Assembly: GCF_000966265.1 (NCBI RefSeq)
Contig: NZ_LANF01000019.1
Coordinates: forward strand, 186,001-250,000
Reading direction: 5' to 3'
Length of the DNA: 64,000 nt
From: Palaeococcus ferrophilus DSM 13482
GTDB lineage: Archaea; Methanobacteriota_B; Thermococci; Thermococcales; Thermococcaceae
The position numbers were made by a program, and so were the translations under genes. Below the pieces are notes generated by a model that was not told where the DNA came from, did no database searches, and saw nothing but the letters and a program-made list of their open reading frames with translations. Each line of letters begins with the position of its first letter. Position 1 is the first letter of the stretch. Positions 3,454-52,478 of this stretch are shown here, in pieces.

Positions 3454-3483
3454 ACACATCACCCCTCGAAAAAATATTGGAGG

Positions 3484-6726: not shown

Positions 6727-6736
6727 TTCCATCACC

Positions 6737-8071: not shown

Positions 8072-8970
8072 GCTCCCGCCCCCTCCTGGAGTCTGGTTAT
8101 TCTCATGTTGACGAACATGTAGACCGCCAGCACGATGGTGGCGATGAGAAGCACCGCAGCTGCCTTCCCATACTCGGGAAGCGCCGACCCGAAGGCCTTT
8201 CTATAACCGTACAGCAGAAGGAAGCGGTCCTCGAAGAGGTTGCCGTTGTAGAGGAAGGGCACGAGGAAGTACTGGAAGCTGGCGGCGCTCGTTAGTATGG
8301 TGGCAAAGGCTATGGGCTTGCTGACTATGGGTATGACCACCCTTGTGAGCCTCTGCCAGTAGTTTGCCCCATCTATGATGGCCGCTTCCACGAGCGTGTC
8401 CGGGACCGACTGGAGGGCCGAGGTTATGACCGTCATCATGAAGGGGTACGCCAGCCACACCTCGATTATGTTGAGAGAGACAAAGCCCCACGTTATGTTG
8501 GTCATCCAGTCCGGCGGGTTGCTCCACCCGAGGTCCCTGAGGATTATGTTGATGGGCCCAACGACCGGGTCGAACATGAAGCGCCACACCATGACGGAGA
8601 AGAGGAGCGGAAGGGCCCAGGGGATTATGAGGAGGGCTCTATAAAGGGCCTTCCCCTTAACGTACTTGCTGTTGTAGAGGACGCTCAAGAAGATACCCGC
8701 AAACACCTTGAGGCTCACGCTCGTGAGCACGAAAACCCACGTCCAGAGAAAGGCGCTCCTAAACTTACTATCGCTCAGCGCCCATTTAAAGTTCTCAATC
8801 CCCACGAACCTCAGGGGCTCCGCATTGGGAGCCTGTATGGGGAAGTTCCCGAGCTTTGCATTTGTGAACGCGATGTAAATCGAATAAACGATTGGATATA
8901 TGTTGAAGAACAGGAACGCCACCATTCCGGGCAGGATTAAAGCAAGGGCTGCCATCGTCTTTTTGTCCAC
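8068..8970 (-). CDS. malF: maltodextrin ABC transporter permease MalF
   Basis: A 300-residue permease with about six membrane segments, pairing with MalG. The EAA loop is EAAIIDGANYWQRLTRVVIPIVSKPI. I set the start at the GTG giving VDKKTMAALALILPG, because GGGAGGTGA is 5 nt upstream; a start 7 codons earlier would bury that ribosome binding site in the coding region. The protein lacks the large P2 loop of Escherichia coli MalF, while the neighbouring MalG carries an insertion, so the extracytoplasmic domain appears to have moved between subunits. It lies about 45 nt after the binding-protein gene. Confidence 0.92.
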   Translation of the reverse strand: MDKKTMAALALILPGMVAFLFFNIYPIVYSIYIAFTNAKLGNFPIQAPNAEPLRFVGIENFKWALSDSKFRSAFLWTWVFVLTSVSLKVFAGIFLSVLYNSKYVKGKALYRALLIIPWALPLLFSVMVWRFMFDPVVGPINIILRDLGWSNPPDWMTNITWGFVSLNIIEVWLAYPFMMTVITSALQSVPDTLVEAAIIDGANYWQRLTRVVIPIVSKPIAFATILTSAASFQYFLVPFLYNGNLFEDRFLLLYGYRKAFGSALPEYGKAAAVLLIATIVLAVYMFVNMRITRLQEGAGA

Positions 8971-9015
8971 AGGTCTCACCTCCCGCATCAATAATAAAGA
9001 GAAAAGGAAACCCCA

Positions 9016-12338
<3,323 letters not shown>

Positions 12339-12361
12339 ATTAAACACCACCTATAGTGTAG

Positions 12362-12382
12362 TATCACTCCCAATGTTTAAAC
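12362..12382 (-). promoter_or_regulatory. degenerate TGM-like operator and TATA between cyclodextrinase and regulator genes
   Basis: For the minus-strand gene, TTTAAAC (12376-12382) is positioned as a TATA box about 40 nt before the ATG. Directly after it lies AAACAT-TGGGA-GTGATA, matching TATCAC-N5-GTGATA at 9 of 12 positions with an intact right half. It also lies in the leader of the divergent regulator gene, so it could serve for autoregulation. Confidence 0.45.
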
Positions 12383-12417
12383 TCGCAGGAGTGAATATAA
12401 AGTTTGGGGGAATGAAA

Positions 12418-13440
12418 ATGAACGAAGAGGAGATAATCGAAAAACTCCAGAAGCTGGGACTCACTAAATACGAGAGCCTCGCCTACATAACCCTGCTGAA
12501 GCTCGGCCCGAGCAAGGCTACGGACATCACGAAGGAGAGCGGGATACCCCACACGAGGGTGTACGACGTCCTGAGCTCCCTTCACAGGAAGGGCTTTGTG
12601 GACATGATGCCCGGCACCCCGAGGCTCTACAAGCCCGTGAATCCGGAACTCGTGCTTGAAAAGATAAAGGAAGACCTGGTTAACGACATTGACAGGCTAA
12701 AGGAGATGTTCGTCGAGCTCTACAAAACGGTTCACGGCGAGGATTTGCCGGAGATATGGACGATACACGGCTTCGAGAACACCGTCGAGAGGGCGGAGTA
12801 CATTATACGGAGTGCCCGCTACGAGGTTCTCATAAACACTCCCTTCGAGTTCCTGTCCCTCCTGAGGGAGGAGATAAAGAAGCGCAAGGACGTGCTCTTC
12901 ATAATCATCAGCAACTTCGAGGAAGTGCCCGAGTGGCTCAAGGGGGAGAACATCATACTCGCCCGGAGCGGAGGGGCACCGTGGCTCATGGCCAGCTGGA
13001 TCATAGGTGATGTGGAGTATGCGCTCTTCTTCGGCGCCCTTCCGAAGGACAGGAGAAGGGAGAAGTTCTATTCCTTCTGGGGCAAGTCCGCGAAGCTCAT
13101 CCAGAACTACATGCACTGGTTCTACACGATGTACTTTGACAACAGCGAGCTGATCAAGCCCCTCGAGTACGATAGACTAAAGAAGCCCCTGGAGCTTGTC
13201 AACATAAGGACGCTCATAACCGTTCTCAAGCAGACCACCCTGCCGAGGCGCATAGAGGTGGCGGGAAGAACGGTGGAGGACAAGGAGGAAATCACGATAG
13301 ACGGTGAGGTTGTGGAATACGAGTACACTCCTCTGACGGCCAGCGTCCTCGTAAGGGGCAGGGAAGGAGAATGGAAGGTCGGAGGGCTCGGAAGCTATTT
13401 CGAGGACATTGAGGGTGAGAAGTTCATACTCATTGACTGA
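12418..13440 (+). CDS. tgr: TrmB-family sugar-responsive transcriptional regulator (Tgr/TrmBL1 type)
   Basis: A 340-residue TrmB-family protein. The N-terminal winged helix (about residues 1-75) has LGLTKYESLAYITLLKLGPSKATDITKESGIPHTRVYDVLSSLHRKGFV, the hallmark of the family. The C-terminal part carries the sugar-binding domain ending in TPLTASVLVRGREGEWKVGGLGSYFED. By family and location, divergent from the maltodextrin operon, it should be the Thermococcales glycolytic regulator. That protein binds TGM sites, represses sugar uptake and glycolysis genes, and activates gluconeogenic ones in the absence of maltooligosaccharides. The start at MNEEE is chosen because GGGGG lies 7 nt upstream; ATGs at 12373 and 12412 are alternatives. 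Confidence 0.88.
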   Translation: MNEEEIIEKLQKLGLTKYESLAYITLLKLGPSKATDITKESGIPHTRVYDVLSSLHRKGFVDMMPGTPRLYKPVNPELVLEKIKEDLVNDIDRLKEMFVELYKTVHGEDLPEIWTIHGFENTVERAEYIIRSARYEVLINTPFEFLSLLREEIKKRKDVLFIIISNFEEVPEWLKGENIILARSGGAPWLMASWIIGDVEYALFFGALPKDRRREKFYSFWGKSAKLIQNYMHWFYTMYFDNSELIKPLEYDRLKKPLELVNIRTLITVLKQTTLPRRIEVAGRTVEDKEEITIDGEVVEYEYTPLTASVLVRGREGEWKVGGLGSYFEDIEGEKFILID

Positions 13441-13449
13441 GGGATACGT

Positions 13450-14808
13450 ATGAGGATACTCATACTCGGCTTCGAGTACCTCCCCGTCAAGGTGGGAGGT
13501 TTGGCGGAGGCCATAACCAGCATAGCGGAAACGCTCGCGAAGCTTGGCAACGAGGTGCTCGTCTTCACCCCCAGCCACGGCCACGTGGAGGGGGAGCCCC
13601 TCGCGAGGTTCAAGATGGATGTTAAAGGTGGTACCGTGGAGGTAACCGCCTACGAGAGGTCCCAGAACGGCGTTAGGGTATTTGCCCTCAGCGACCCCCT
13701 CCTTGACAACCCCGATGTTTACGGCCCGGGATGGGAAGGACTCCTCGAGAAGGCGGTGCACTTCGGGAAGGCGAGCGTGGGGCTGCTAAACAGGCTCATC
13801 GAGGAGGAAGGAAAGCCCGACGTGCTCCACTTCCACGACTGGCACACCGTCTTTGCGGGGGCGCTTCTGAAGAAGTACTTCCAGCTCCCGGCGGTCTTCA
13901 CGATTCACCGCCTCAACAAGGCAAAGGTTCCCGCCCACTACTTCCACGAGGCTAACCTCGGTGAATTAGCGCCGTACCCCGACATTGACCCCGAGTACGT
14001 TGGAGCCTACATAGCGGACGTCGTCACGACGGTGAGCAGGAGCTACCTCCTGGAGGAGTGGGACTTTTTCAGGAACTTCGAGGGCAAGGCAACGCACGTC
14101 TTCAACGGCATTGACTGCTCCTTCTGGAATGAGAACCTTCTCAAGAACGCAGACCTGCCGAGGCACGAGCGCAGAAAGGTGATGCTTAAAGAACTCGGCC
14201 TTGAGGACGGCGTCGCCTTCATGTTCATAGGGCGCTTCGACAGGGGGCAGAAGGGCGTTGACACTCTCCTGAGGGCGATTGAAGTGTTCGCGGAGCGCTA
14301 TCCCGAGGAGTTCTCAAAGGCCTGCTTCCTCATAATAGGGAAAGGCGACCCCGAGCTGGAGGGTATGGCGCGCTCCCTCGAGGGGAGGTATTCCAACGTC
14401 AAGGTAATCACGGAGATGCTGAGCAGGGAGTTCGTTAGGGAGCTCTACGGCAGTGTGGACTTCACCATCGTTCCGTCCTACTTCGAGCCCTTTGGCCTCG
14501 TTCAGATGGAGGCCATGTGCCTCGGGGCCATCCCGATAGGCTCCGCCGTGGGAGGGATAAAGGACACGATAGTGCCCCTGGAACGGGAGGGAGCCACGGG
14601 AATCCTTGTGCCGCCCAGGGATGCGGAAGCCCTTGCGGAGGCCATGAGGAAGGCGGTGCACCTCAGGGACGACGTGGAGAAGATAAGGCTGCTCCGGGAG
14701 AACGGCAAGGCCCGCACGGGAATTTTCACGTGGGAGAACGCTTGCAGACGATACCTCAGGGCTTATCGGAACGATATTGACAAGGCGGCCGGCTTCCTCA
14801 TTGAGTGA
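13450..14808 (+). CDS. glgA: glycogen synthase (GT-B fold, ADP/UDP-glucose dependent)
   Basis: A 452-residue glycosyltransferase extending alpha-1,4-glucan from a nucleotide-glucose. The N-terminal Rossmann domain begins MRILILGFEYLPVKVGGLAEA with the KxGGLA nucleotide-sugar loop. The middle has HFHDWHT. The C-terminal domain has FIGRFDRGQKGVD and the E-x7-E motif in EPFGLVQMEAM. It closely resembles the short (about 450 residue) Pyrococcus glycogen synthase. GAGGGATACGT precedes the ATG, 9 nt after the regulator stop, so the two genes probably share a transcript. Coupling storage-glucan synthesis to the sugar regulator makes biological sense. Confidence 0.93.
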   Translation: MRILILGFEYLPVKVGGLAEAITSIAETLAKLGNEVLVFTPSHGHVEGEPLARFKMDVKGGTVEVTAYERSQNGVRVFALSDPLLDNPDVYGPGWEGLLEKAVHFGKASVGLLNRLIEEEGKPDVLHFHDWHTVFAGALLKKYFQLPAVFTIHRLNKAKVPAHYFHEANLGELAPYPDIDPEYVGAYIADVVTTVSRSYLLEEWDFFRNFEGKATHVFNGIDCSFWNENLLKNADLPRHERRKVMLKELGLEDGVAFMFIGRFDRGQKGVDTLLRAIEVFAERYPEEFSKACFLIIGKGDPELEGMARSLEGRYSNVKVITEMLSREFVRELYGSVDFTIVPSYFEPFGLVQMEAMCLGAIPIGSAVGGIKDTIVPLEREGATGILVPPRDAEALAEAMRKAVHLRDDVEKIRLLRENGKARTGIFTWENACRRYLRAYRNDIDKAAGFLIE

Positions 14809-41614: not shown

Positions 41615-43771
41615 TCAAGCCTTCAGGAACTTCGCGTTGATAGCCACTATCACCGTGCTCATGCTCATCAGCAGTGCTCCGAGGGCCGGACTGAGCAGTA
41701 TCCCGTAGGAGTAGAGGGCTCCAGCGGCGAGAGGGATTGCGAAGGAGTTATAGCCAGTCGCCCACGCTAAATTCTGCACCATCTTCCCGTAGGTCTTCCT
41801 CGCGAGGTGTACCGCCGTTATCACATCCCTTGGGTCGTTCTTGACGAGGATTATGTCCGCGCTCTCTATTGCAACGTCGGTTCCAGCTCCGATGGCTATG
41901 CCCACATCGGCCTGTATCAAAGCCGGAGCATCGTTTATGCCGTCGCCGACCATTGCCGTTACCAACCCCTGGCTCTGGAGCTCCTTGACCTTCTCCGACT
42001 TCTGGTGGGGCAGAACCTCCGCAAAGAAGCCGTCCAGACCTAGTTCTTCAGCCACCCACTTCGCCACCTTGGCGTTGTCGCCGGTAAGCATGTAGGCCTT
42101 TATCCCCATCTCGTGGAGCCTCTTGACGGCTTCCCTTGACTCCGGCCTTATCCTGTCCGCCAGGGCCATCGCTCCGGCGAGCTTTCCATCAACCACCAGG
42201 AAAACCACCGTCTTTCCCTGCTCCAAAACCCTGTTCACGCGCTCGTCCTCTTTCCAGAGCCCGTTCTCCTTCAGGAAACCGGGGCTCACAACGAGGACTT
42301 CCCTTCCGTTGATAACTCCCTGAACGCCCTTGCCGGGAAGGACCTTTGACTCCTTCACGTCATAGGGCTTAAGGCCGAGCTCCCTGGCCTTTTCAACTAC
42401 TCCCTGCGCTATCGGGTGGCTTGAATGCGATTCAAGCGCCGCGGCGTACTTCAGGATTTCCTCCTCACTAAGCTCGTCCAGCGGAATAACGTCCGTGACC
42501 TCGAACCTGCCCTCGGTCAGCGTCCCCGTCTTGTCGAAGACAACAACTTCAACGTCCTTAGCCCTCTCAAAGGCCTCCCTGTTCCTGATGAGGATCCCCT
42601 TCTCGGCGGAGATGGAAGTAGAGACCGAAACGACCAGCGGAACGGCCAGTCCTAAGGCATGGGGACACGTTATGACCATTACCGTCACCATTCTTTCCAG
42701 GGCAAAGACGAAGGGCTTTCCGAGGTAGAGCCACGTCCCGAGCGTTATACTGCCGGCTGTAATCGCTATCAGAGTGAGGTAGAATGCGGCCCTGTTGGCC
42801 AAATCCTGGGTTTTAGAGCGCGTCTCCTGGGCCTGTCTCACCAGTTCGACGACCTGCATGAGGTAGGTGTCCTTCCCCGTCTTCTCTATCCTGACCTTTA
42901 TTGCGCCTTCGAGGTTTATCGAGCCGCCTATAACGGTATCACCGGGCTTTTTGTAGACGGGCTTCGACTCACCGGTGAGCATAGCCTCGTTCACGCTCGT
43001 TTCACCCTCGACGATGACGCCATCGGAGGGTATCTTCTCTCCGGGCTTGACGAGGACAATGTCACCTTTCTTCAGCTCGCTGACCGGGACGTCCTTTATT
43101 CCCTCCGGCGTCACGAGGTGGGCTTCCGTCGGCATGAGCTTTATGAGCTCCTCCAGCGCCCTCGAAGCACCGAGGACGGAGCGCATCTCGATGTAGTGCC
43201 CCACTAGCATGATGTCAATAAGCGTTGCCAGCTCCCAGTAGAAGGTCTTGCCCGGTACTCCGAAGGTCACCGCGACGCTGTAAGAGAAGGCAACCGTGAT
43301 TGCCAGCCCTATCAGCGTCATCATTCCCGGGTTCCTCTTCCTCAGCTCGTCCTGCATCCCCTTGAGGAAAGGCCAGCCGCCGTAGAAGTAGACCACCGCC
43401 GAGAGGCCGAAGAGAACGTAGTGATCCCCGGGAAAGCTCAGCTCGAAGCCGAAGAAGTTCTGTATCAGCGGCGAGAGAAGGAGTATCGGAATCGTGAGTA
43501 TCGAGGAAACGATGAACCTCCTCTTGAAGTCCTCCATCATCATCCTGTGGTGCTCCGCGTGGGAGTGCTTGTGCTCGCCATGTCCCCTGTGTTCGTGCTC
43601 CATGCCCCCATGTCCGGCGTGTTCTTCCATTCCTCCGCTTCCGTGGGCATGTTCGTGGTTTCCGGCCATCTGCATCTCATGCCCCTCGTGCTCCATATGT
43701 TCCATCTCAGAACCATCTCCATCATCGTGCATGTGTGCGTGCTCACGGTGCACGCTGTCTTCTTCTTTCAT
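41615..43771 (-). CDS. copB: P1B-type copper/silver ATPase CopB
   Basis: A 718-residue heavy-metal pump. Residues 1-75 form a His/Met-rich cytosolic tail with many HxH, GHE and GHGG units in place of HMA domains. The membrane metal site is CPH (TCPHALGLAVPLV), which defines the CopB-like P1B-3 class for Cu(II)/Cu(I)/Ag(I). MLTGES, the phosphorylated Asp in DKTGTLTEG and GDGINDAPAL are intact. A GGGTGATGTGTT sequence precedes the ATG. The promoter contains TTTGTACA-N4-AAG, partly like the motif before the two other Met-rich genes. It exports surplus copper. Confidence 0.93.
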   Translation of the reverse strand: MKEEDSVHREHAHMHDDGDGSEMEHMEHEGHEMQMAGNHEHAHGSGGMEEHAGHGGMEHEHRGHGEHKHSHAEHHRMMMEDFKRRFIVSSILTIPILLLSPLIQNFFGFELSFPGDHYVLFGLSAVVYFYGGWPFLKGMQDELRKRNPGMMTLIGLAITVAFSYSVAVTFGVPGKTFYWELATLIDIMLVGHYIEMRSVLGASRALEELIKLMPTEAHLVTPEGIKDVPVSELKKGDIVLVKPGEKIPSDGVIVEGETSVNEAMLTGESKPVYKKPGDTVIGGSINLEGAIKVRIEKTGKDTYLMQVVELVRQAQETRSKTQDLANRAAFYLTLIAITAGSITLGTWLYLGKPFVFALERMVTVMVITCPHALGLAVPLVVSVSTSISAEKGILIRNREAFERAKDVEVVVFDKTGTLTEGRFEVTDVIPLDELSEEEILKYAAALESHSSHPIAQGVVEKARELGLKPYDVKESKVLPGKGVQGVINGREVLVVSPGFLKENGLWKEDERVNRVLEQGKTVVFLVVDGKLAGAMALADRIRPESREAVKRLHEMGIKAYMLTGDNAKVAKWVAEELGLDGFFAEVLPHQKSEKVKELQSQGLVTAMVGDGINDAPALIQADVGIAIGAGTDVAIESADIILVKNDPRDVITAVHLARKTYGKMVQNLAWATGYNSFAIPLAAGALYSYGILLSPALGALLMSMSTVIVAINAKFLKA

Positions 43772-43880: not shown

Positions 43881-44447
43881 CTACCCCTTCATCATCTCCT
43901 CGATTTCCTTCAGCCTCTTTCCAGGTTCGAGCTCCTTCTCGGCCGAGGATGTCATCAGACCTTCCGCCATCTCTACCGTCTCGGCATCGAACTCTCCGGT
44001 GAGTATGCTCTCGCTCGTGAGGTCTATCATCGTGCTGAGGGCCTCCTCAAGGCTCTCGACCTTCCCCATTGCCTTCTCAAACTCCACCTGCATCTTTGCA
44101 ACATCCTCCGCCCCCGGCCCTTCGGCTATGCTTTTGACAACGTCCTTGCTGAACCCTATGAACTCGGCCGAGACCTTAACGAGCTCCCTCTGTATCTCGG
44201 CCTCCTCCATGAGGAGAAGCAGCCTCTTTGCCTGCTTTATCCTCTGCTCCAGAGTCAGATACTTTACAGCGCTTCTCTTGAGAAGGGCCTCGTCCCCGAG
44301 TTTGGCAGCTTCCTTTCCCTGGAGAAAAATCTTGCGCTTCAGGTTCTCAAGGTTGTTTATGTACTGCTTCAGAGCCATCTTGGCCTTTCTCATCCGAATC
44401 TTCCGCTCTATCTCCTTCTCCTCCTTGGATTTCCAGAGCCTCACCAT
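43881..44447 (-). CDS. ESCRT-III-like coiled-coil protein (cluster gene 8)
   Basis: A 188-residue all-helical protein. A basic N-terminal pair of long helices (KEEKEIERKIRMRKAKMALKQ, then LQGKEAAKLGDEALLKRSAVKYLTLEQRIKQAKRLLLLMEEAE) is followed by shorter acidic helices (KMQVEFEKAMGKVESLEEALSTMIDLTSESI). This charge layout and the order of elements resemble ESCRT-III/CHMP and CdvB proteins. The last residues, GKRLKEIEEMMKG, look like a weak MIM1 motif that could bind the MIT-like domain of the AAA ATPase two genes upstream. Start MVRLWKSK follows GGGGGT. Homology is inferred from architecture, not from a search. Confidence 0.55.
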   Translation of the reverse strand: MVRLWKSKEEKEIERKIRMRKAKMALKQYINNLENLKRKIFLQGKEAAKLGDEALLKRSAVKYLTLEQRIKQAKRLLLLMEEAEIQRELVKVSAEFIGFSKDVVKSIAEGPGAEDVAKMQVEFEKAMGKVESLEEALSTMIDLTSESILTGEFDAETVEMAEGLMTSSAEKELEPGKRLKEIEEMMKG

Positions 44448-44452
44448 TAACA

Positions 44453-45190
44453 CTACCCCCGTTTGAACACGATTACCGTGATGTTGTCTTCGGCGACTTT
44501 CAAAGCCTCCCCAACGAGCCGCTCCGCAGCCTCCTTCGGGCCACCCTGGGAGGCGAGTTCCGCTATCTCCCCGTCATCTAGGGTATCGTGAAGGCCGTCC
44601 GTGCTCAGGAGCAGGACGTCGGTCTCTTCAATTTCCCACACGTACGTATCAACCGCCAGCTCTATTCCCAGGGCCTTCGTCACGACGTGTCTCATCGGAT
44701 GGGAGCGAACCTCCTCCTCCCATATAACGCCCCTTTCAAGCAGTTCCCCCACGATGGAGTGGTCCCTCGTCCTTGAGATCACCTTACCATCCCTTATCAG
44801 GTAGGCCCTGCTGTCGCCGGTGTTCGCTATCACTGCCGTGTCCTCCCTCACGAAGGCAGCCACCATCGTCGTGCCGGTCTTTCCTGGCTCTGGGGACATC
44901 TCCATTATCCGGCGGTGTGCGTCCTTGTAGGCCGTTTTCAGGAGCTCTTCAACTTCTCTCAGTGCAAACCCCTCGGTGTATTCCCTCTCAAACGTCTCCC
45001 GGAGCGTCTCCACCGCCGCCTTCGAGGCTATTTCTCCTCCCTCATGCCCCCCGAGGCCGTCCGCGACGGCAAGGAGGTACGCATTTCCAAGGGGCAGTAT
45101 CAGAAGCGCGTCCTCGTTTTTCTCCCTCGGCCCCGGGTGTGAGATGCCCCACGCCCTATTCCCAACACCCGTTGAGATGACCCTGCTCAT
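44453..45190 (-). CDS. PP2C-family protein phosphatase (cluster gene 7)
   Basis: A 245-residue metal-dependent Ser/Thr phosphatase. Motifs in order: GPREKNEDALLI near residue 25 (metal Asp of motif 1), VADGLGGHEGGEIAS (motif 2), GTTMVAAFV, NTGDSRAYLIRDGKV, STDGLHDTLDD and EDNITVIVFKRG. All metal-binding Asp residues are present. It should reverse phosphorylation by the kinase encoded two genes upstream. The ATG overlaps the AAA ATPase stop by 4 nt and the ribosome binding site GGAGGAG lies within that gene. The longer upstream reading is less likely. Confidence 0.92.
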   Translation of the reverse strand: MSRVISTGVGNRAWGISHPGPREKNEDALLILPLGNAYLLAVADGLGGHEGGEIASKAAVETLRETFEREYTEGFALREVEELLKTAYKDAHRRIMEMSPEPGKTGTTMVAAFVREDTAVIANTGDSRAYLIRDGKVISRTRDHSIVGELLERGVIWEEEVRSHPMRHVVTKALGIELAVDTYVWEIEETDVLLLSTDGLHDTLDDGEIAELASQGGPKEAAERLVGEALKVAEDNITVIVFKRG

Positions 45191-46368
45191 CCCCCGAACT
45201 CCTCCGCCCACTTCTCATACCTCTCGATGTCCCTCTTTGTTAACGGAGACTTGATCTTCCTGAACGCCTCCTCGAAGTCCCTCATCTCAAGCGGACGCGT
45301 TCTTAATGACCTCTTTCTCAGTTCCTCCAGGGGGAGGGAGGCGAGCTTGTGCAGATCCCTGTTTTCCTCGCGTATCATGTTCCACACCGCCTCCTGGCAG
45401 AGATTTCTCACGTCCCTGCCCGAGTACAGCCTTCTGACGCTCTCTTCGGCAATCGCGTCTAAATCGAGTCTCGAAACGTCCAGGCCCTTCGTATGTATCC
45501 GGACTATCGCCTTGACGGCCTCTTTATCGGGCAGGGGCACGTAGATCCTCTTGGGGAAGCGCGAGAGTACCGCCTCGTCTAGGTCCCACGGTGTGTTAGT
45601 CGCCGCTAGCGTGAGGACTAGCCTCTCACTCTCCCCTTCGTGGAACCCCTCAAGCTCGGTGAGGAGTGTGGAGAGCATCCTCCTCGTTGCCTCGCTTGTG
45701 TCGTTTGAGCGCCTCGTGGTGAGGGCGTCTATCTCGTCGAGGAACACTATGCTGGGTGCCTTCTCCCTCGCCACCTCGTAGAGTGCGGAGATTATCTTAC
45801 TCGACTCACCAAAGTACTTGCTGAGGACGCTTGACGCCTTAACGTTGAAGAACGTCGCGTCCAGGCTTCCAGCGGCGGCCGAAGCTAGGAGGGTCTTCCC
45901 GGTTCCTGGCGGCCCAAAGAGAAGGATGCCCTTCCAGGGCTGGATTGAGGCGGGCTTTCTAAGGGCCGAGATGACCACGGTCTCCATCATGAGGAGCTTG
46001 ACGTTATCAAGGCCCCCTATGTCGTCCCAGGTTACACGGGACTTCGACACAAGCCCCAGGACGTACTCCCTGAACTGGTCCTCTTCTTCCTTCTCCTGGG
46101 TAGTGCTCTTTCCTTCGGCCCCGACGATGGCTTTCCTGCCGTACTCCCCCCTCTCAATCTGACCGGCTACATCCTCCCACTTCTTGGCCTTCTTCAGGTA
46201 CAGCTCCCCGTTGTAGGGCACGTGTTTGGCCAGCTGTCTGAGTATGGAGGCACAGCGGAGGGCGCTCTTCTTAGCCCTCTCCATGTTCCCAGCGGCAACG
46301 GCCTTCTCGAACTCCTTTTTGGCCCTCTCGAACTCCGTGAGGAGGGGCCCCGAGAGGTCAACAGGCAT
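45187..46368 (-). CDS. Vps4/CdvC-type AAA ATPase with N-terminal MIT-like domain (cluster gene 6)
   Basis: A 393-residue AAA ATPase. Residues about 8-75 form a three-helix bundle (FERAKKEFEKAVAAGNMERAKKSA... YLKKAKKWEDVAGQIE) like the MIT domain that recruits Vps4 to ESCRT-III. A linker leads to the AAA core: VTWDDIGGLDNVKLLMMETV, Walker A GPPGTGKT, Walker B IVFLDEIDAL, TNTPWDLDEAVLSRFPKRIY. The final DIERYEKWAEEFGG matches the C-terminal helix signature of the Vps4/katanin/spastin clade, which separates it from Cdc48/PAN ATPases. It probably disassembles the three ESCRT-III-like polymers encoded nearby. GGAGGTG sets the start, 2 nt after the kinase stop. Confidence 0.85.
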   Translation of the reverse strand: MPVDLSGPLLTEFERAKKEFEKAVAAGNMERAKKSALRCASILRQLAKHVPYNGELYLKKAKKWEDVAGQIERGEYGRKAIVGAEGKSTTQEKEEEDQFREYVLGLVSKSRVTWDDIGGLDNVKLLMMETVVISALRKPASIQPWKGILLFGPPGTGKTLLASAAAGSLDATFFNVKASSVLSKYFGESSKIISALYEVAREKAPSIVFLDEIDALTTRRSNDTSEATRRMLSTLLTELEGFHEGESERLVLTLAATNTPWDLDEAVLSRFPKRIYVPLPDKEAVKAIVRIHTKGLDVSRLDLDAIAEESVRRLYSGRDVRNLCQEAVWNMIREENRDLHKLASLPLEELRKRSLRTRPLEMRDFEEAFRKIKSPLTKRDIERYEKWAEEFGG

Positions 46369-46370
46369 TT

Positions 46371-48086
46371 TCACACCTCCTTAAAGCCAAGTTTTACCCT
46401 GTGGACTATTATCTCGGCCTTCTCTATGAGTTCCTCGGGAACCTCCAGGCCGTTCTCAAGGCGCAGTTTCAGCTGCTCCCTCAGCTTCATAAGCTCCCTC
46501 CTTGTCTCGCCCCTTGCGTAGTGAACCAAGTCATCGGCGTACTTGAGCGCGTTCACGAGGTCGTTGAGCTTTAGATACAGGAGAAACAGCTCTCCGGCAA
46601 AGTACGCACTCCTCGAAAGGTCCCTAACCGAAACGCTCCTGCCGAGTTTTTCGCGGTAGCTGGTGCCGAGGAACTCTGCTATGTCCTTCTGGAGTTCTTC
46701 AACGCTCCCGTAGCGCTCCTCCTTTTTCTTCGCGAGGCACTTCATTACTACATGCTCAAGGGGCTTTGCTTCCGGGTTAAGCTGGCTCGGAGGAACGGGT
46801 TCCTCAAGGGTTATCTTTGAGGCCACCTCGACGAAGTCCTCGCCCTCGAAGGGTGGCCTTCCCGTGAGAAGCTCGTAGAGCACCGCTCCAATCTGCCATA
46901 CGTCGGTCCTCTCGTCGGTGCCTCCGAAGCGGGAGCTTATCTGTTCCGGAGCGGCGTAGAGCGGCGTGAAGCTCACGGCCTGGGTGGTTCTGCTCTCCTT
47001 GAGGAGCTTGCTCAGCCCCCAGTCGCTCACCTTTGCCCTGCCGTTCTTGAGGAGGATGTTGCTGGGCTTGAGGTCGCGGTGGATGATACCCTTGGAGTGG
47101 GCGTACTTTATGCCCTCTGCAACGTCGAAGATGATTCTCGCGGCCCTCTCCGGATTTAGGGGCTTCTCGAGCTTGGCCAGCGAACTCTCACAGTACTCCA
47201 TTTCCAAATAGGGAACTGGGAAGATGTTGTAGTCGTAGAGCTCGACTATGTTGGGGTGGCTGAGGAGGGACCAGTTCCGCACTTCCCGGAGGAATGCCTT
47301 TCCCCCCGCTTCAGTCAGGCTTATGGGTATCTTGAGGGCCACGACGCTTCCGTCTTCCCTCTCCGCCCTGTAAACCCTCGCAAAGCCGCCCTCACCTATT
47401 AGCTCGACGTTCTTATACCTCGCAAAGAGCTCCTCCAGCGGGGTGCGAGGCCCTTCCGCTGAATTTTTCGAACCTCCTTGTGCCGGAACGGGGACTGGAA
47501 GGGGAGTTTTGGGCTCCACCTTTGGCCTCTCGATTATCTCAGTGCTCACCTTAACTTTAGCACTCACAATTCCGGAGCGGGCGACAACCTTGGCGCTGAC
47601 CTTTCCGGACCTCCTCGGGACCGCCCTCACGCTCTGGGAGACGTATTCACCTGGCCTCACACTCTTGAAGTAAATCCTCGTGGAGCTGAGGTCGAAGTGC
47701 CTTGAGAGGTCGCTGAGGTTTATCTCAACGTTTATCGTCCCCCTGAGCAGGTTCCTGAAGCCGACGTTGAGGGGTATCTCCTCGCCGGCGTGAACCTTCG
47801 GCGGAAGCTCGACTATCACTGACTTACGGAGAAGCTCCTTCATATCCTCTCTCGGAACCGGCGGAGCCGGTGGAACGGGTTTAGGATAGCGATACTTGTA
47901 CCTTTTACTGGACTTCGAAACGTCTTTGAGCAGGTGCTTTATCAGGTGTCCAATCCACATGGCTATCACGATGAAAATTATAAACCCCGCGGCCCTCCCG
48001 AAGATGACGGAGATCAGCACTATAACTATGAAGAGCTTGACTATCCCTTCCAGGATGTCGTCATCGAACATATGGCCCATGTGCAC
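46371..48086 (-). CDS. membrane-anchored eukaryote-type Ser/Thr protein kinase (cluster gene 5)
   Basis: A 571-residue protein. One or two N-terminal membrane segments (about residues 12-50) precede an Ig-like beta-sandwich (about 80-195, VIVELPPKVHAGEEIPLNVGFRNLL) and a Pro-rich linker. The kinase domain runs from about 222: IGEGGFARVYRA, VALKIP (ATP Lys), IIHRDLKPSNILL, SDWGLSKLL (DWG instead of DFG), YAAPEQ and TDVWQIGAVLYELLTG. A helical C-terminus follows. All catalytic residues are present. It heads the second transcription unit, with the TATA box at 48128-48137. The start is a GTG after GGAGGG. Likely targets are the coiled-coil proteins of the cluster. Confidence 0.9.
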   Translation of the reverse strand: MHMGHMFDDDILEGIVKLFIVIVLISVIFGRAAGFIIFIVIAMWIGHLIKHLLKDVSKSSKRYKYRYPKPVPPAPPVPREDMKELLRKSVIVELPPKVHAGEEIPLNVGFRNLLRGTINVEINLSDLSRHFDLSSTRIYFKSVRPGEYVSQSVRAVPRRSGKVSAKVVARSGIVSAKVKVSTEIIERPKVEPKTPLPVPVPAQGGSKNSAEGPRTPLEELFARYKNVELIGEGGFARVYRAEREDGSVVALKIPISLTEAGGKAFLREVRNWSLLSHPNIVELYDYNIFPVPYLEMEYCESSLAKLEKPLNPERAARIIFDVAEGIKYAHSKGIIHRDLKPSNILLKNGRAKVSDWGLSKLLKESRTTQAVSFTPLYAAPEQISSRFGGTDERTDVWQIGAVLYELLTGRPPFEGEDFVEVASKITLEEPVPPSQLNPEAKPLEHVVMKCLAKKKEERYGSVEELQKDIAEFLGTSYREKLGRSVSVRDLSRSAYFAGELFLLYLKLNDLVNALKYADDLVHYARGETRRELMKLREQLKLRLENGLEVPEELIEKAEIIVHRVKLGFKEV

Positions 48087-48127
48087 GTCAATCCCTCCGT
48101 TCTCCCATGGTCACCATCTCTGGCAAA

Positions 48128-48137
48128 CATTTAACCC
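48128..48137 (-). promoter_or_regulatory. internal promoter before the kinase gene
   Basis: Minus strand AAAAAGGGTTAAATGTTT has the form of a BRE/TATA about 42-51 nt before the kinase GTG. It lies in a 135-nt gap, so genes 5-8 of the cluster can be transcribed separately from genes 1-4. Confidence 0.5.
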
Positions 48138-48221
48138 TTTTTGGTGTCGTTTTGAAAATCTGCAGGAGGTTATCTTTCATTTAGGGCAAATATTGAAGGG
48201 AGGTTAGCAACAAAGTGGAAG

Positions 48222-48827
48222 TCACTCCGTAACGACTTCCTCTGTCTCCTCCTTCTCCCCCGCCACTTTCTCGGCAGCTTTCTCCGGCTCCAGCTCGCCC
48301 TCCTTCACCGCCTCTATCGTCTTCATTATCTCAGCGAGCTCTTCGTCCTCCTCGAACTCAACGCCCGCACCTAGAGCCTGGTCGGTGTACTCGAGCATCG
48401 TGTTCAGGTTCTCGTTGAGGTTCTGGGCATCGAGCCTCATGCTCACGAGGTTCTTCTCCAGCTCCTCGGGGGACATCTTTCTCAGGAGTTCCCACGTGGG
48501 CGTGCCCCTGAGGATGGCCTCGTTCTCCTTGATTATCAGCAGGTTGCTGACGAGCATTAGCTGTTTGTTGAGCTGGGCGTGGGTGTTCTGGAGGCTCTTC
48601 TTGCGCTGGTTGAGGGTTTTTATCTTCGTAGCTATCGTGAGTTCCTCGCTTTTGCTTCTGGCATTCTTGGCCCTCTCGAAGAGGAGGGCTATTTCTCTGT
48701 CTATCTCAGCTATCTCGTTCTCGATCTTCCCTATCTGCATGTCAAGCTTAACCTGGTTCTCCCTGAGCTTGTCAATCGGTATGTCGAGCGGGTTCTTCTT
48801 TCCAAAAAACCTTGAAAGGAGGCCCAT
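48222..48827 (-). CDS. ESCRT-III-like protein, CHMP4/Snf7-type layout (cluster gene 4)
   Basis: A 201-residue helical protein starting MGLLSRFFGKKNP, a short amphipathic segment like that of Snf7. Then comes a long basic hairpin (KLRENQVKLDMQIGKIENEI; TIATKIKTLNQRKKSLQNTH; QLNKQLMLVSNLLIIKENEAIL), then MSPEELEKNLVSMRLDAQNLNENLNTMLEY. An acidic stretch, GAGVEFEEDEELAEIMKTIE, recalls the FGEEFDEDELMAELEEL region of CHMP4. The tail is Glu-rich. The order and charge switch match ESCRT-III subunits closely. The ATG overlaps the stop of the preceding gene (TGATG). Confidence 0.6.
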   Translation of the reverse strand: MGLLSRFFGKKNPLDIPIDKLRENQVKLDMQIGKIENEIAEIDREIALLFERAKNARSKSEELTIATKIKTLNQRKKSLQNTHAQLNKQLMLVSNLLIIKENEAILRGTPTWELLRKMSPEELEKNLVSMRLDAQNLNENLNTMLEYTDQALGAGVEFEEDEELAEIMKTIEAVKEGELEPEKAAEKVAGEKEETEEVVTE

Positions 48828-49423
48828 CACAGCTCCTCCTCCGTATCCTTCTCGATCTTAGGCGAGGCTATCTCGGAGGATACCTCCTCAGCGTCTGCCT
48901 CCCCTGTCTCGACCTTGGCCCAGGCTTCCATGAGCTCCCTCTCGGTCTGGTCTTCCGTCGCCTCAAACTCGGCCACGTCCATCTCGAAGACCCTGTTGAG
49001 GCCCTCAACCATCTCATCGAACTCCCTGCCGTCGAGACTCACCCTGACGAGCACGCTTTCAAGCTGCTCCGGCTCGACCTTGGAGAGCTTGTCCCAGAGG
49101 CCTATCTTCCTCAACTCCTTCTCGTACTTCTTGACCACTATCAGGTTCTTGATGAAGGTGTACTGCTTCTGGGCGGTGGTGAAGTCCCTCAGCTTGAGCT
49201 TCTGCTCCATGTCGAGGCTCTTAATTTCTTGGGCGAGCATCTTCTTCTTGAGGACGTCCGCCCCGATGCCCTCCTGAAAAAGCTGCTTCTTTTTCTTCTC
49301 GATGCGCTCGATTTCCTTCTTCGCCCTCTCAAGCCTGTTCCTCAGGCGTATCTCCTCCTCCTGAAGCTCCCTGAGGGAGAGCTTTTCAATCGGGTTCTTC
49401 CTAAACCTGTCGAGTATCCCCAT
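48827..49423 (-). CDS. ESCRT-III-like protein (cluster gene 3)
   Basis: A 198-residue paralogue-like partner of the following gene. It begins MGILDRFRKNPIEKLS and continues with a Lys/Arg/Glu-rich long hairpin: RNRLERAKKEIERIEKKKKQL, then LKKKMLAQEIKSLDMEQKLKLRD. VEPEQLESVLVRVSLDGREFDEMVEGLNRVFEMDV corresponds to the third/fourth helices. An acidic C-terminal third (EATEDQTERELMEAWAKVETGEADAEEVSSEI) follows. The AxEIKxL phrase in the second helix is typical of Snf7-like proteins. The start is set by AGGTGAT. It is 10 nt from the large coiled-coil gene and overlaps the next by 1 nt. Confidence 0.58.
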   Translation of the reverse strand: MGILDRFRKNPIEKLSLRELQEEEIRLRNRLERAKKEIERIEKKKKQLFQEGIGADVLKKKMLAQEIKSLDMEQKLKLRDFTTAQKQYTFIKNLIVVKKYEKELRKIGLWDKLSKVEPEQLESVLVRVSLDGREFDEMVEGLNRVFEMDVAEFEATEDQTERELMEAWAKVETGEADAEEVSSEIASPKIEKDTEEEL

Positions 49424-49433
49424 CACAATCACC

Positions 49434-51257
49434 TCACTTCCTTATCAGCACGAGTCCAAACCCGTCTATGTATTTCACCACATGGCCTTCCCGGCCGAGT
49501 TCATAGAACGCCCTCCTCACCTGCTCCTCGTCCCCGCATTCGAGGCACTCGCTGAGGGGGAGGTAGTCCCTGCCCTCAAGCTTCTCCCTGACGCACTCCC
49601 TCACCTTGGCATAGACCTCCTCGTCCAGTTCAAGGCTCACCAGTGGAGCTAGAGCCCCGGCGTAGCGGTCGTTGGGGTTGTGGATCACCTCTCCCGTCTC
49701 GGTGTCGAGGAGTATGAGCGAGACGTTCTCGGAGTAGAAGTTCCTGTGGAAGTCCTCGGATGAGACGTACCTCCTGATGCGCTCCTCAAAGCCGAGGGGT
49801 GAAGCTACCACGAGCACGGTTCTTCCCCCGCCAGGGGATTCTCTCGCCCCCACAAGGTGTACGTTCAGCTCCGCCAGGGTCAGCGGGTCAGTATCCATAC
49901 CTAACTCTGCGAGCCTCTCCACGCGGGTAAGGTAAATCGCCTTTATGAGGATCCTCTCCTTTCTTCCGAGGAGCTTCCTCTCCTTCAGGCGGATCTCCAG
50001 GTATCTGTTCTCAGGCAGGTTCCAGAGGGCCGTTTCGTCGAGCTTTCCCCTGAAGCCTGAAACATCGACCCCCTTCTTTTCCTCAACGTCCTCAACGGAG
50101 TACCGCTTTCCAAGGAGGCTTATCTTATCCCTGAACTTGCTCTTCACCCTGCCGATGAAGTTGAGCTCCTGAATTCTCGCCTCCTCCCTCACAACGAGCC
50201 TGCTGCCCTTCTCCACCTTGCCCGAGATGGCGAGCACTTCCTCTATCTTCCTCCTAAGTTCCTCGTCCCTCTGTGAGACCTCGATTTCCCTCTTCCTGAG
50301 CTCCATCTCCTTCTGCTTGAGCTCAAGCTCCCTTCTCCGTATCCTTTCTTCGAGAAGCTTCGCCTCGCGCAGGGCCTCTTCCCTGGCCTTTGCAAGCTCT
50401 TCCTCCAGTTTTTCCCTCAGCTCCTCGTCCTTGAGTTCGAGCAACCTTTTAGTCAGCTCCTCCTTCTCACGCTCAAACTTTCTGATCAGCTCCTCCTTCT
50501 CCCTGCGGAGCCTCTCTATCTCGGCCAAGTTTGACGTGGAGAGCTCCTCCTCAAGCTTCCTGCGCTCACCCTCGAAGAACTCGACCATCTCGGCCATTCT
50601 CCTCTTCAGCTCTCTAACCCGGGTCTCGTAGGTCTCCCTCACGGCTTCGACTTCCCCGGCCTTTTCCCTCTCCCACTCCTCCATGAGCGTCCGGAACCAG
50701 CCGTATTTGCTCGCCTCGTTTATTGCCGCATCAATCTTCTCGCGGTATCTCCTCCAGGTTCTCTTGAGGTGGTACCTGAGGGGGAGCTTTATCTCCGGGT
50801 CTTCGAGCTGCTCCTCTATCCATCTGTCCATGCCGAGGTAGTAGGTTTTGAGCAGCTGGAGAACCTCTTCATCCCTGCGGTAGAGCTTTCCGAGGATGTC
50901 CTCCTTCGTGGTTATTTCGAAAACGTTGTACTTCAGTATCTCATCTATCAGTCCTATTTCGCGCTCCGAAAAGCGCTCGCTGGCAGGAGAGAACTCCTCC
51001 CCCTTCCTCCAGAAGCTCCACGCGAGAACCGCCAGGGCGGCCTCAAATTTTGCCCGGAAGGCCGTATCAACATCGTTCAGGAAATCGCCGCATTCCCCCT
51101 CCAGATAGCGTGAATACGATTCAAGAACCCGCTCCCAGAGCTCCTTTCTCGTATCAAAGCTCTCCACGAGGATATCTCGCCCCTGCCTGATGACCCTCTC
51201 CGCAGGTCTCAGAAGAGTTCTCACGCAGTCGGGATTACCTTCGTTGAATATCACCAT
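49434..51257 (-). CDS. large coiled-coil protein (cluster gene 2)
   Basis: A 607-residue protein I do not recognise. Residues 1-205 are helical with aromatic residues (FEAALAVLAWSFWRKGEEF, LKRTWRRYREKIDAAINEASKYGWF). About 205-350 is a continuous coiled coil (EREKEELTKRLLELKDEELREKLEEELAKAREEAL). The C-terminal 250 residues are alpha/beta (YLEIRLKERKLLGRKERILIKAIYL; VLVVASPLGFEERIRRYVS; SLILLDTETGEVIHNPNDRYAGAL) and end in a winged-helix-like segment (EEQVRRAFYELGREGHVVKYIDGFGLVLIRK). No signal or membrane segment. It may scaffold or position the ESCRT-like proteins encoded just downstream. GAGGTGATACC precedes the ATG. Confidence 0.6.
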   Translation of the reverse strand: MVIFNEGNPDCVRTLLRPAERVIRQGRDILVESFDTRKELWERVLESYSRYLEGECGDFLNDVDTAFRAKFEAALAVLAWSFWRKGEEFSPASERFSEREIGLIDEILKYNVFEITTKEDILGKLYRRDEEVLQLLKTYYLGMDRWIEEQLEDPEIKLPLRYHLKRTWRRYREKIDAAINEASKYGWFRTLMEEWEREKAGEVEAVRETYETRVRELKRRMAEMVEFFEGERRKLEEELSTSNLAEIERLRREKEELIRKFEREKEELTKRLLELKDEELREKLEEELAKAREEALREAKLLEERIRRRELELKQKEMELRKREIEVSQRDEELRRKIEEVLAISGKVEKGSRLVVREEARIQELNFIGRVKSKFRDKISLLGKRYSVEDVEEKKGVDVSGFRGKLDETALWNLPENRYLEIRLKERKLLGRKERILIKAIYLTRVERLAELGMDTDPLTLAELNVHLVGARESPGGGRTVLVVASPLGFEERIRRYVSSEDFHRNFYSENVSLILLDTETGEVIHNPNDRYAGALAPLVSLELDEEVYAKVRECVREKLEGRDYLPLSECLECGDEEQVRRAFYELGREGHVVKYIDGFGLVLIRK

Positions 51258-51266
51258 GGTATCACC

Positions 51267-51785
51267 TCACAGGAGCAGGGAAAGCTCCCTCTCGAGTTTT
51301 TTTGCCATATCCTCCACCGCGCTGCCGTATCCTTCAAGGCTGATGTTAACGGCCGTTCCTCCATCTTCCTCTTCAACGGACACCGTTATCTCCAGCCTGC
51401 CCTTCTTCGTGTAGGCCCTGTACCGTGATACGCTACCCTCGCCGGAAACGTAATATGCGCCGAACTTGGAGAGGACGTACCTGAGGAGCTTGGCCACGAT
51501 TGCCGGCTCTTCGCTGCTCGTGTGGCGTATTTCAACTACTTTGGGGGTTACCTTTGAGCCGATATCCTCCGGCTCGACTCTGTACACCCTAACTTTGCCC
51601 TCCGTCGGCGGGTCGAGCTTTGAGAGGAGTTCCTCCATGAGCTTGGACACATCGGAGGCCTCAACCATGAAGGAGATGCCCTTCAGCTTGGACACCCTGG
51701 CCCGATTTGACCACTTGTCAATTAGGTATTCAACGCGCTTTCGCTCAGCATCGTTATCGTAAACCACCACGAACAGGTGTGTCAC
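51267..51785 (-). CDS. conserved hypothetical alpha/beta protein, first gene of the ESCRT-like cluster
   Basis: A 172-residue protein of unknown function. The N-terminal half has strand/helix alternation (HLFVVVYDNDAERKRVEYLIDKW, then ISFMVEASDVSKLMEELLSKL). The C-terminal half is a curved-sheet-like domain (RYRAYTKKGRLEITVSVEEEDGGTAVNISLEGYG) ending in an amphipathic helix, which resembles small START/SRPBCC-like or pleckstrin-like folds only in outline. The GTG start is chosen because GAGGTGA lies 5 nt upstream. It lies directly behind the promoter of unit 1 and 9 nt before the large coiled-coil gene. Confidence 0.6.
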   Translation of the reverse strand: MTHLFVVVYDNDAERKRVEYLIDKWSNRARVSKLKGISFMVEASDVSKLMEELLSKLDPPTEGKVRVYRVEPEDIGSKVTPKVVEIRHTSSEEPAIVAKLLRYVLSKFGAYYVSGEGSVSRYRAYTKKGRLEITVSVEEEDGGTAVNISLEGYGSAVEDMAKKLERELSLLL

Positions 51786-51831
51786 GGTCTTCACCTCTGC
51801 ACTTCCTTTGGATTGTGTTGGGCATCGGGAG

Positions 51832-51839
51832 TATATAAC
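51832..51839 (-). promoter_or_regulatory. promoter of ESCRT-like cluster unit 1
   Basis: Minus strand GAAAACGTTATATACTC gives a BRE/TATA about 47-54 nt before the first start codon. It probably drives genes 1-4, with read-through possible into genes 5-8. Confidence 0.6.
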
Positions 51840-51929
51840 GTTTTCGGCATTTTGGAGAAAAGTACAATACAGTCAAATTTTCCACTTTGTTAAATGTTGG
51901 AAAATAGGAGGAGAAACTCATGAAGAAAA

Positions 51930-52478
51930 TCAAACCCTCTCAACGACGCCCTTCAGTATCTCCTCAACCTTCCCCGCCACCTCGAGCAGTTCCTCGTTCC
52001 CGGTAACGCCCATGGCCACCGTCGGGAGAAGTAAGCTCACGTGGGTCTTCCCTTCCTCCACGTAGACTACCATGTTGCACGGCAGGAACGTGCCGCTGTT
52101 GATGTCTATGCCTATCAGCTCGCTTGAGTAGTTCGGATTGCACGCCCCGAGGATTACGTAGGGCTCCATATCAAGGCCGAGTTTCTCCTTAAAGAGTTTA
52201 TCAACCCTTATCTCGCTGAGCACTCCGAAGCCTTCCTTCTTCAGCTCCTCCTTGACCTTCTCAACGGTCTCGTCAAATCCTGCCTCGACCCCCAAGACGT
52301 AGGCGTACTCCTTCGTGGGCTCTTCCATCCCGTGCATTCCGCGACCTTTCATGCCCTTTCCGTGCCCCTTGCAGCCACCTTTCATCTTGCCTTTGCCCTT
52401 CATTCCCTGCATGCCGCCTTCCATGCCTTCCTTGTCTTTTCCCTTCATTCCACCCATTTCATTCATTTTGCCGTTCAT
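51930..52478 (-). CDS. DUF302 domain protein with Met/Gly/Lys/His-rich N-terminus
   Basis: A 182-residue protein. Residues 1-50 are low complexity, made of GMKGK, GMQGMKGKGKMKGG and HGKGMKGRGMHGM units with one Cys, a probable metal-binding tail. The remainder is a DUF302 domain: YVLGVEAGFDETVEKVKEELKKEGFGVLSEIRVDKLFKEKLG, then YVILGACNPNYSSELIGIDINSGTFLPCNMVVYVEEGKTHVSLLLPT. The ACNP and LPCN motifs hold two conserved cysteines. No signal peptide. DUF302 proteins often occur with metal-stress genes. The start follows GAGGTGATTCAGA. The promoter shares a motif with the Met-rich gene at 33878. Confidence 0.8.
   Translation of the reverse strand: MNGKMNEMGGMKGKDKEGMEGGMQGMKGKGKMKGGCKGHGKGMKGRGMHGMEEPTKEYAYVLGVEAGFDETVEKVKEELKKEGFGVLSEIRVDKLFKEKLGLDMEPYVILGACNPNYSSELIGIDINSGTFLPCNMVVYVEEGKTHVSLLLPTVAMGVTGNEELLEVAGKVEEILKGVVERV

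Follow-up and report, generated by a model that had tools for sequence, protein, structure and literature searches.

Does a string of eight genes in the euryarchaeon Palaeococcus ferrophilus DSM 13482 encode an ESCRT-like system that includes a dedicated protein kinase and phosphatase, and if so, is that system new and what might it do? The question was raised by a preliminary description of part of a 64,000-nucleotide stretch of contig NZ_LANF01000019.1 (below, the window). Thermococcales were said to lack ESCRT-III in a 2021 review (PMC10117752), a statement that was corrected by sequence analysis in the 2024 survey of Makarova et al. (mBio, PMC10936438), where, in the part of the text available to us, the same gene set is named the "Main" clade of archaeal ESCRT systems and Thermococcales are among its carriers. 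Measured against that text, the window locus is quite probably a Main-clade archaeal ESCRT, a known kind and not a new one.

Layout of the locus

All eight of the co-directional genes previously claimed were found as minus-strand ORFs between 43881 and 51794, with the transcription order A-B-C-D-E-F-G-H (Table 1). Their arrangement in two halves agrees with the measured spacing, which is tight (9 nt between A and B, 1 nt between B and C, a 4 nt overlap of C and D, a 4 nt overlap of E and F, a single shared nucleotide of G and H, and an F/G overlap of 25 nt if G is the longest ORF or 4 nt if it starts at its internal ATG) except for a gap of 135 nt between D and E. The string is not a chance assembly, because the same eight genes recur in the same order in other Thermococcaceae, with protein identities of about 54-98%. 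This conservation of the neighborhood, which the preliminary description had proposed as a check, extends in part to another euryarchaeal order, as in the Main clade: in three Methanothermococcus loci (L153, L155 and L156) A, B, C, D and Vps4 follow one another in that order, with an extra ORF separating C from D in L156; in L155 the kinase and PP2C genes come after them.

Table 1. Genes and putative control elements of the ESCRT-like locus (window coordinates)
Feature	Coordinates	Strand	Length and description
Conserved promoter upstream of A	51833..51861	-	BRE/TATA-like CCGAAAAcgTTATAT, TTTTCTCCA before it; from alignment of 8 loci
Gene A	51267..51794	-	175 aa
Gene B	49434..51257	-	607 aa, helical/coiled-coil
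Gene C	48827..49432	-	201 aa, ESCRT-III-like
Gene D	48222..48830	-	202 aa, ESCRT-III-like
D-E intergenic gap	48087..48221	-	candidate second promoter; from alignment of 8 loci
Gene E	46371..48086	-	571 aa, membrane-anchored Ser/Thr protein kinase
Gene F	45187..46374	-	395 aa, Vps4-type AAA ATPase
Gene G	44453..45211	-	252 aa, PP2C Ser/Thr phosphatase; alternative ATG start 45190
Gene H	43881..44453	-	190 aa, third ESCRT-III-like protein

The displayed stretch ends, at position 51839, within the conserved promoter element upstream of A. The pattern of this element matches once within the window (0 expected) and has a single match with 0 mismatches genome-wide, the next best having 2 mismatches. 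A regulon sharing the element was considered and rejected, since every other genomic match has at least 2 mismatches and the pattern in reverse, used as a control, is matched about as often (7 against 11). The gap between D and E may contain a second promoter, to judge from the alignment, in which a conserved GGAGGGAT is the predicted ribosome site ahead of E; RNA folding of this gap gave no unusual structure (z 1.0).

The encoded proteins

The three small proteins C, D and H had been taken to be ESCRT-III-like, and this is supported. C and D are paralogues by profile-profile comparison (probability 98.7, E 4e-16), and C is 53-55% identical to its Methanothermococcus counterparts. The best Snf7 match of any C/D member is 1e-3, and those of the window copies are insignificant. 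The AlphaFold2 model of D (pLDDT 75, pTM 0.60) is a helical hairpin followed by short helices, and a Foldseek search of the PDB with it gave ESCRT-III proteins (CdvB, CdvB2, CHMP3, CHMP2A-CHMP3 and Asgard ESCRT-IIIB) as 15 of the 24 top matches, with a weak best E-value of 0.27. Thus the commonest matches of the predicted fold, among which CdvB2, CHMP3 and Asgard ESCRT-III are the most frequent at weak E-values, are ESCRT-III proteins and not the unrelated folds that would have spoken against the assignment. H matches Pfam Snf7 in 8 of 8 orthologues (best 1.1e-5), the window copy at 5.7e-5 with 23.3 bits, below the gathering score of 27.3, and its C-terminal tail is strongly conserved with invariant residues. 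A profile comparison of D with H found no significant link (probability 8%), and PDB sequence searches with the ESCRT-III profiles A1 and A2 returned unrelated weak matches only. Main-clade systems have at least one ESCRT-III protein of the Snf7 superfamily; here H is one by its Snf7 match and D by its fold.

The ATPase F carries AAA (2.2e-38) and Vps4_C (1.1e-8) domains, both above the Pfam cut-offs, with intact GPPGTGKT, FLDEID, SKYFGES (pore loop) and RFPKR motifs, and it matches the CdvC family NF041006 at 7e-60, below the equivalog cut-off. An N-terminal MIT domain, for which the preliminary description had proposed a search, was not recovered: the sole Pfam match was in 1 of 17 orthologues (E 0.17), the Methanothermococcus Vps4 copies had none, and a PDB profile search with F gave none. 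For Main-clade Vps4 proteins, genomic context is accepted as an alternative criterion to MIT (PMC10936438, text available to us).

The kinase E has a Pfam Pkinase domain (E 5.7e-48, residues 224-466), an N-terminal hydrophobic segment and intact catalytic motifs (G-loop, VALK, HRDLKPSN, DWG and APE). The phosphatase G matches PP2C_2 (Pfam, 2.3e-17) and, below the cut-off, a Stp1/IreP-type family (1.3e-59), and its ADGLGG, GDSR, TDG and DNIT motifs are intact. A membrane Ser/Thr kinase and a Ser/Thr phosphatase in one locus, as in many members of the Main clade, are represented by E and G.

A, which always leads the A-B-C-D order, has no significant Pfam match. In its place and size it resembles the arCOG08177-type protein (an inactive Cas2-like domain plus a TBP-fold DUF3568 domain), an identity that we infer from the available text of PMC10936438. 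The AlphaFold2 model of B (mean pLDDT 75.5, pTM 0.40) predicts an N-terminal helical domain, a long coiled coil, an alpha/beta domain and a C-terminal winged-helix-like fold, the last with winged-helix topology (helices 546-560, 568-574 and 577-588; strands 565-567, 592-597 and 601-606). A PDB fold search with the whole protein gave nothing informative, and on the model B is a candidate arCOG09748-type (ESCRT-II-like) protein.

Distribution and enlarged loci

Is the ATPase found together with the ESCRT-III genes in other genomes? Among 115 Thermococci genomes, B is present in 40, C/D in 39, the F-type Vps4 in 38 and the H-type gene in 30. B and the F-type Vps4 occur together in 36, and apart from G067 the few genomes that break this pattern are incomplete or fragmented drafts. 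An absence of such co-occurrence had been named as evidence that would count against the system, and the opposite was found. In G067, D (79%) is fused within a single ORF to the N-terminal end of B (33%), which points to contact between B and D. A solo Vps4 is also encoded by Thermococcales; the idea that it and the full system exclude one another was rejected, as both are present in six genomes.

The eight-gene cassette appears, from sequence comparison, to have been transferred horizontally between genera. Threonyl-tRNA synthetase, used as a control, is at 87-90% to all and does not resolve their kinship; it is thus uninformative, and the argument for transfer is that of the FtsZ comparison alone. 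Related loci are larger, up to 14-42 kb with 3-7 kinases each, and several of these kinases combine transmembrane segments with large PEGA or beta-propeller regions, in keeping with a membrane sensor. Genes of the TIR, HEPN/MNT, Schlafen-type and archaeal ATPase kinds are present in these enlarged loci. The text of PMC10936438 available to us does not mention transfer between genera, the fusion of B with D, the promoter element or the TIR/Schlafen genes of enlarged loci.

Possible function and relation to known systems

The locus is, in our judgement, quite probably a compact Main-clade ESCRT, switched by kinase and phosphatase, that serves accessory membrane remodelling rather than primary division. 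B, together with A, would act at the membrane as nucleator or adaptor in an ESCRT-I/II-like role and recruit C and D, the ESCRT-III pair that would polymerise and bend or cut the membrane; H would be a third ESCRT-III that acts separately, and F would pull out subunits to reset the filament. Depending on the condition of the envelope, E and G would switch assembly on and off through phosphorylation of components of the system, and the use might be stimulus-gated sorting, budding or membrane repair. We infer the filament assembly, the kinase targets and the membrane process, the last of which may be budding, vesicle release or repair. The earlier reading as phosphorylation-controlled membrane remodelling is largely right, being supported by the genes, the fold and the co-occurrence, and it was already in print: the accessible text of PMC10936438 proposes phosphorylation control and vesicle or protein sorting for the Main clade. 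The papers that we consulted describe no experiment on a Main-clade system.

A reading in which F is a chaperone of the Cdc48 kind and the small coiled-coil proteins do not belong to ESCRT-III would fit the insignificant Snf7 matches of C and D and the VCP-like ATPases that head the PDB sequence matches of F, but we give this almost no credence in view of the D fold, the Snf7 matches of H and the HHpred/DALI work that backs the Main-clade assignment (PMC10936438, in the text available), and because F has Vps4_C, a single AAA module and a distinct clade (72-100% identity, apart from Cdc48-type matches at about 40%). A role in cell division like that of Cdv in Thermoproteota is very improbable. 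ESCRT is multifunctional and related ESCRT-III and Vps4 proteins drive division in Sulfolobales, but the host genome has three FtsZ/tubulin-family genes over the cut-off and the system is missing from most Thermococci, which together argue against a primary division role; moreover, none of the eight proteins has a Pfam match to CdvA or to a PRC barrel, where Cdv has CdvA beside CdvB and CdvC, and the available text of PMC10936438 argues for vesicle or sorting roles.

General machinery for the extracellular vesicles of Thermococcales is the least improbable of these alternatives, though still unlikely: many vesicles are shed by these organisms and those of Sulfolobus islandicus need ESCRT-III and Vps4 (PMC10117752), but only 38 of 115 Thermococci genomes have the F-type Vps4, and disruption of each of three Vps4 homologues of T. 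kodakarensis, which may belong to another clade, left vesicle production unchanged (unpublished, in PMC10117752). The locus could also be a mobile stress or antiviral defense module, in which ESCRT repairs or sheds membrane when triggered by kinase signalling. Its patchy distribution, its apparent transfer between genera and the TIR, HEPN/MNT and Schlafen-type genes and archaeal ATPases of related loci favor this, but we think it rather improbable since the compact locus of the window has none of these additional genes and the PADLOC matches of the kinase and ATPase are broad-family matches. HEPN/MNT genes and PF01637 ATPases are, moreover, common generally in such archaea. We are equally doubtful of a wider version, in which the ESCRT of Thermococcales would be an envelope-defense module, exchanged horizontally and gated by receptor kinases, with TIR/HEPN/Schlafen-type effectors in the enlarged loci; membrane kinases would then detect damage to the surface or the activity of viruses and turn on ESCRT-III scission, which would seal or shed the membrane.

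An ESCRT that comes with a kinase and a phosphatase in a euryarchaeon is of interest both for the way ESCRT operated before there were eukaryotes and for membrane remodelling in Thermococcales, and the compact form, with its eight genes, lends itself to deletion or to reconstitution in vitro. The window locus shares Vps4, ESCRT-III, a membrane Ser/Thr kinase and a Ser/Thr phosphatase with the Main clade, which spans Thermococcales and other euryarchaeal orders; B and A are its candidates for the winged-helix/coiled-coil arCOG09748 protein and the Cas2-like/DUF3568 arCOG08177 protein of that clade, and no departing feature was found in comparison with the available text of PMC10936438. The solo Vps4 of Thermococcales is likewise an AAA, Vps4-type ATPase with an N-terminal helical region similar to that of F, but it is only 48-52% identical to F and lies without ESCRT neighbors among housekeeping genes such as that for seryl-tRNA synthetase. 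The Cdv system of Thermoproteota (CdvA, CdvB and CdvC) likewise clusters ESCRT-III-like proteins with a Vps4-type ATPase; unlike Cdv, the window locus includes a kinase, a phosphatase and candidate arCOG09748/08177-type proteins, in a genome that also has FtsZ-family genes. With eukaryotic and Asgard ESCRT-III and Vps4 it has the core machine and the type of fold in common, whereas no ubiquitin components are seen at the locus and regulation would be by a dedicated kinase and phosphatase.

Layout of the locus and its flanks

The preliminary description had placed here an ESCRT-like system encoded by eight co-directional genes in two halves, and ORF calling bears out this layout: eight ORFs (A to H in transcription order) lie head to tail from 51794 to 43881, and "two halves" is correct because the sole wide gap is the 135 nt between D and E, all other spacings being tight. 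The promoter-like element upstream of A could be aligned across eight loci; its pattern matches once in the window, where none is expected, and a genome-wide scan gave one match with 0 mismatches. The same two flanking genes accompany the cassette in 12/12 compact loci compared. By inspection only, the genes at 2335-14808 of the window (an ABC transporter, glycosidases and a TrmB-like regulator) resemble a cluster for taking up and processing maltodextrin/alpha-glucan.

Genes of the ESCRT-like locus and neighbouring features
Feature	Position	Strand	Length or sequence
A	first gene	minus	175 aa
B	second gene	minus	607 aa
C	third gene	minus	201 aa
D	fourth gene	minus	202 aa
E, kinase	fifth gene	minus	571 aa
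F, AAA ATPase	sixth gene	minus	395 aa
G, PP2C	seventh gene	minus	252 aa
H	eighth gene	minus	190 aa
BRE/TATA-like archaeal element	51833-51861, upstream of A		CCGAAAAcgTTATAT, preceded by TTTTCTCCA
DUF302-like gene	51930-52478, flank		
His-rich heavy-metal P-type ATPase	41615-43771, flank		

Components of the system

F matches AAA (2.2e-38) and Vps4_C (1.1e-8) above the Pfam cut-offs, E carries a Pkinase domain (5.7e-48) and a hydrophobic N-terminal segment, and G carries a PP2C domain (2.3e-17); the nearest NCBIfam families, CDC48/CdvC for F and Stp1/IreP for G, fall below curated cut-offs. The catalytic motifs of all three enzymes are intact, with DWG in E where DFG is usual. Pfam MIT gave a weak match in 1/17 Vps4 orthologues (E 0.17) and was not found in the Methanothermococcus Vps4 copies, and there was no MIT structure among the matches of a structure-database search with Vps4.

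Among the candidate filament proteins, H matches Snf7 at 5.7e-5, below the Pfam threshold; all eight H orthologues scanned match it too (best 1.1e-5), and C/D match it marginally (5/14 members, best 1e-3). Profile comparison makes C and D clear paralogues (98.7% probability) and found no connection between H and D. D was modelled with AlphaFold2, using 14 C/D sequences (mean pLDDT 75, pTM 0.60); the model has long helices at 17-53 and 58-100, then short ones. Foldseek against 350,542 PDB chains returned nothing at E < 0.001 (best 0.27), but is the ranking itself informative? By manual count, ESCRT-III proteins make up 15 of the first 24 matches (Sulfolobus CdvB2 and CdvB, human CHMP3 and CHMP2A-CHMP3, Asgard ESCRT-IIIB), and PspA and VIPP1 rank below the leading ones. 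This concentration supports, short of proof, an ESCRT-III fold for D, probably a flexible filament protein.

The whole-fold search with B was uninformative. In its model a helical N-terminus precedes a coiled coil and an alpha/beta domain, and the elements at the C-terminus run H-E-H-H-E-E, as a winged helix would. In genome G067 a single 641-aa ORF (L157:11396-13321) combines a D-like ESCRT-III protein (79%) with the N-terminal part of B (33%), a fusion which suggests that the N-terminus of B contacts D.

Distribution, transfer and enlarged loci

Of 115 Thermococci genomes, 40 contain B, 39 contain C/D, 30 contain H-type proteins and 38 contain the locus-type Vps4 (72-100% identity). In 36 genomes B and this Vps4 occur together, and three Methanothermococcus loci, outside Thermococci, keep the order A-B-C-D-Vps4 (followed in one, L155, by kinase and PP2C), so that the predicted association of the ATPase with the coiled-coil genes holds. 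The exceptions are incomplete or highly fragmented drafts (G092, G105; G098, G103, G117), apart from G067, which is not such a draft and lacks the locus-type Vps4. A second Vps4 (48-54% identical), alone in 11 Thermococci genomes and present together with the full system in six, matches the published "solo Vps4" (PMC10936438); its N-terminal helical region resembles that of the locus type, and its neighbours (in L042-L050, where it is 48-52% identical) are housekeeping genes such as seryl-tRNA synthetase, with no ESCRT-III gene nearby. A contig labelled Archaeoglobus sp. MAG (L144) also bears a Thermococci-type locus, at 62% for B and 79-81% for C and D, as a result of either transfer or mis-binning.

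A to F and H of the window are 93-98% identical, and G 86-91%, to their counterparts in G063 and G073, of another genus, whereas the locus is 55-89% identical to that of the congener G001. FtsZ shows the opposite kinship (92% to G001, 84-86% to G063 and G073); a second control, ThrRS, did not resolve it. Since locus and FtsZ disagree, these comparisons indicate that the entire cassette has probably crossed genus boundaries recently.

Enlarged loci (L124-L143, in G066, G064, G084, G036, G113, G075, G033, G070, G022 and G097) span about 14-42 kb with 3-7 kinases, several bearing PEGA, beta-propeller or macro domains, and their PP2Cs may have transmembrane segments. Directly next to H there is often a second Vps4 (60-63% identical; L037 and L039 are examples), which suggests that H and this Vps4 form a pair of their own. 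Some enlarged loci also contain HEPN/MNT, TIR, Schlafen-type or archaeal ATPase genes, or SPFH and pentapeptide-ion-channel genes.

Proposed role and relation to known systems

The data show gene content, gene order and co-occurrence; that filaments form, which proteins are phosphorylated and what happens at the membrane are inferred. The best-supported mechanism is one of kinase/phosphatase-gated ESCRT-III filaments: B/A at the membrane would nucleate filaments of C, D and H, the membrane-anchored kinase and the PP2C phosphatase would gate them, and Vps4 (F) would recycle them. A primary role in division is unlikely because the genome has three FtsZ/tubulin-family genes and most relatives lack the system; its patchy distribution and apparent transfer suggest an accessory, condition-dependent function.

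An earlier survey credited Euryarchaeota with no coherent Cdv system (PMC8970359), and a 2021 review (PMC10117752) reported ESCRT-III as absent from Thermococcales and, from unpublished data, vesicles as unaffected by disruption of the T. kodakarensis Vps4 homologues. The preliminary interpretation was largely right; the system itself is already described. Our additions are modest: the co-occurrence counts, apparent horizontal cassette transfer, B-D fusion, conserved promoter and enlarged loci. The system probably belongs to the Main clade, which Makarova et al. 2024 (mBio, PMC10936438) define by Vps4, ESCRT-III, arCOG09748 (C-terminal wH) and arCOG08177 (Cas2-like plus DUF3568), with a membrane STK and an STP in many loci and Thermococcales among its carriers; those authors infer that phosphorylation is key to these systems and that their roles are vesicle formation and protein sorting.
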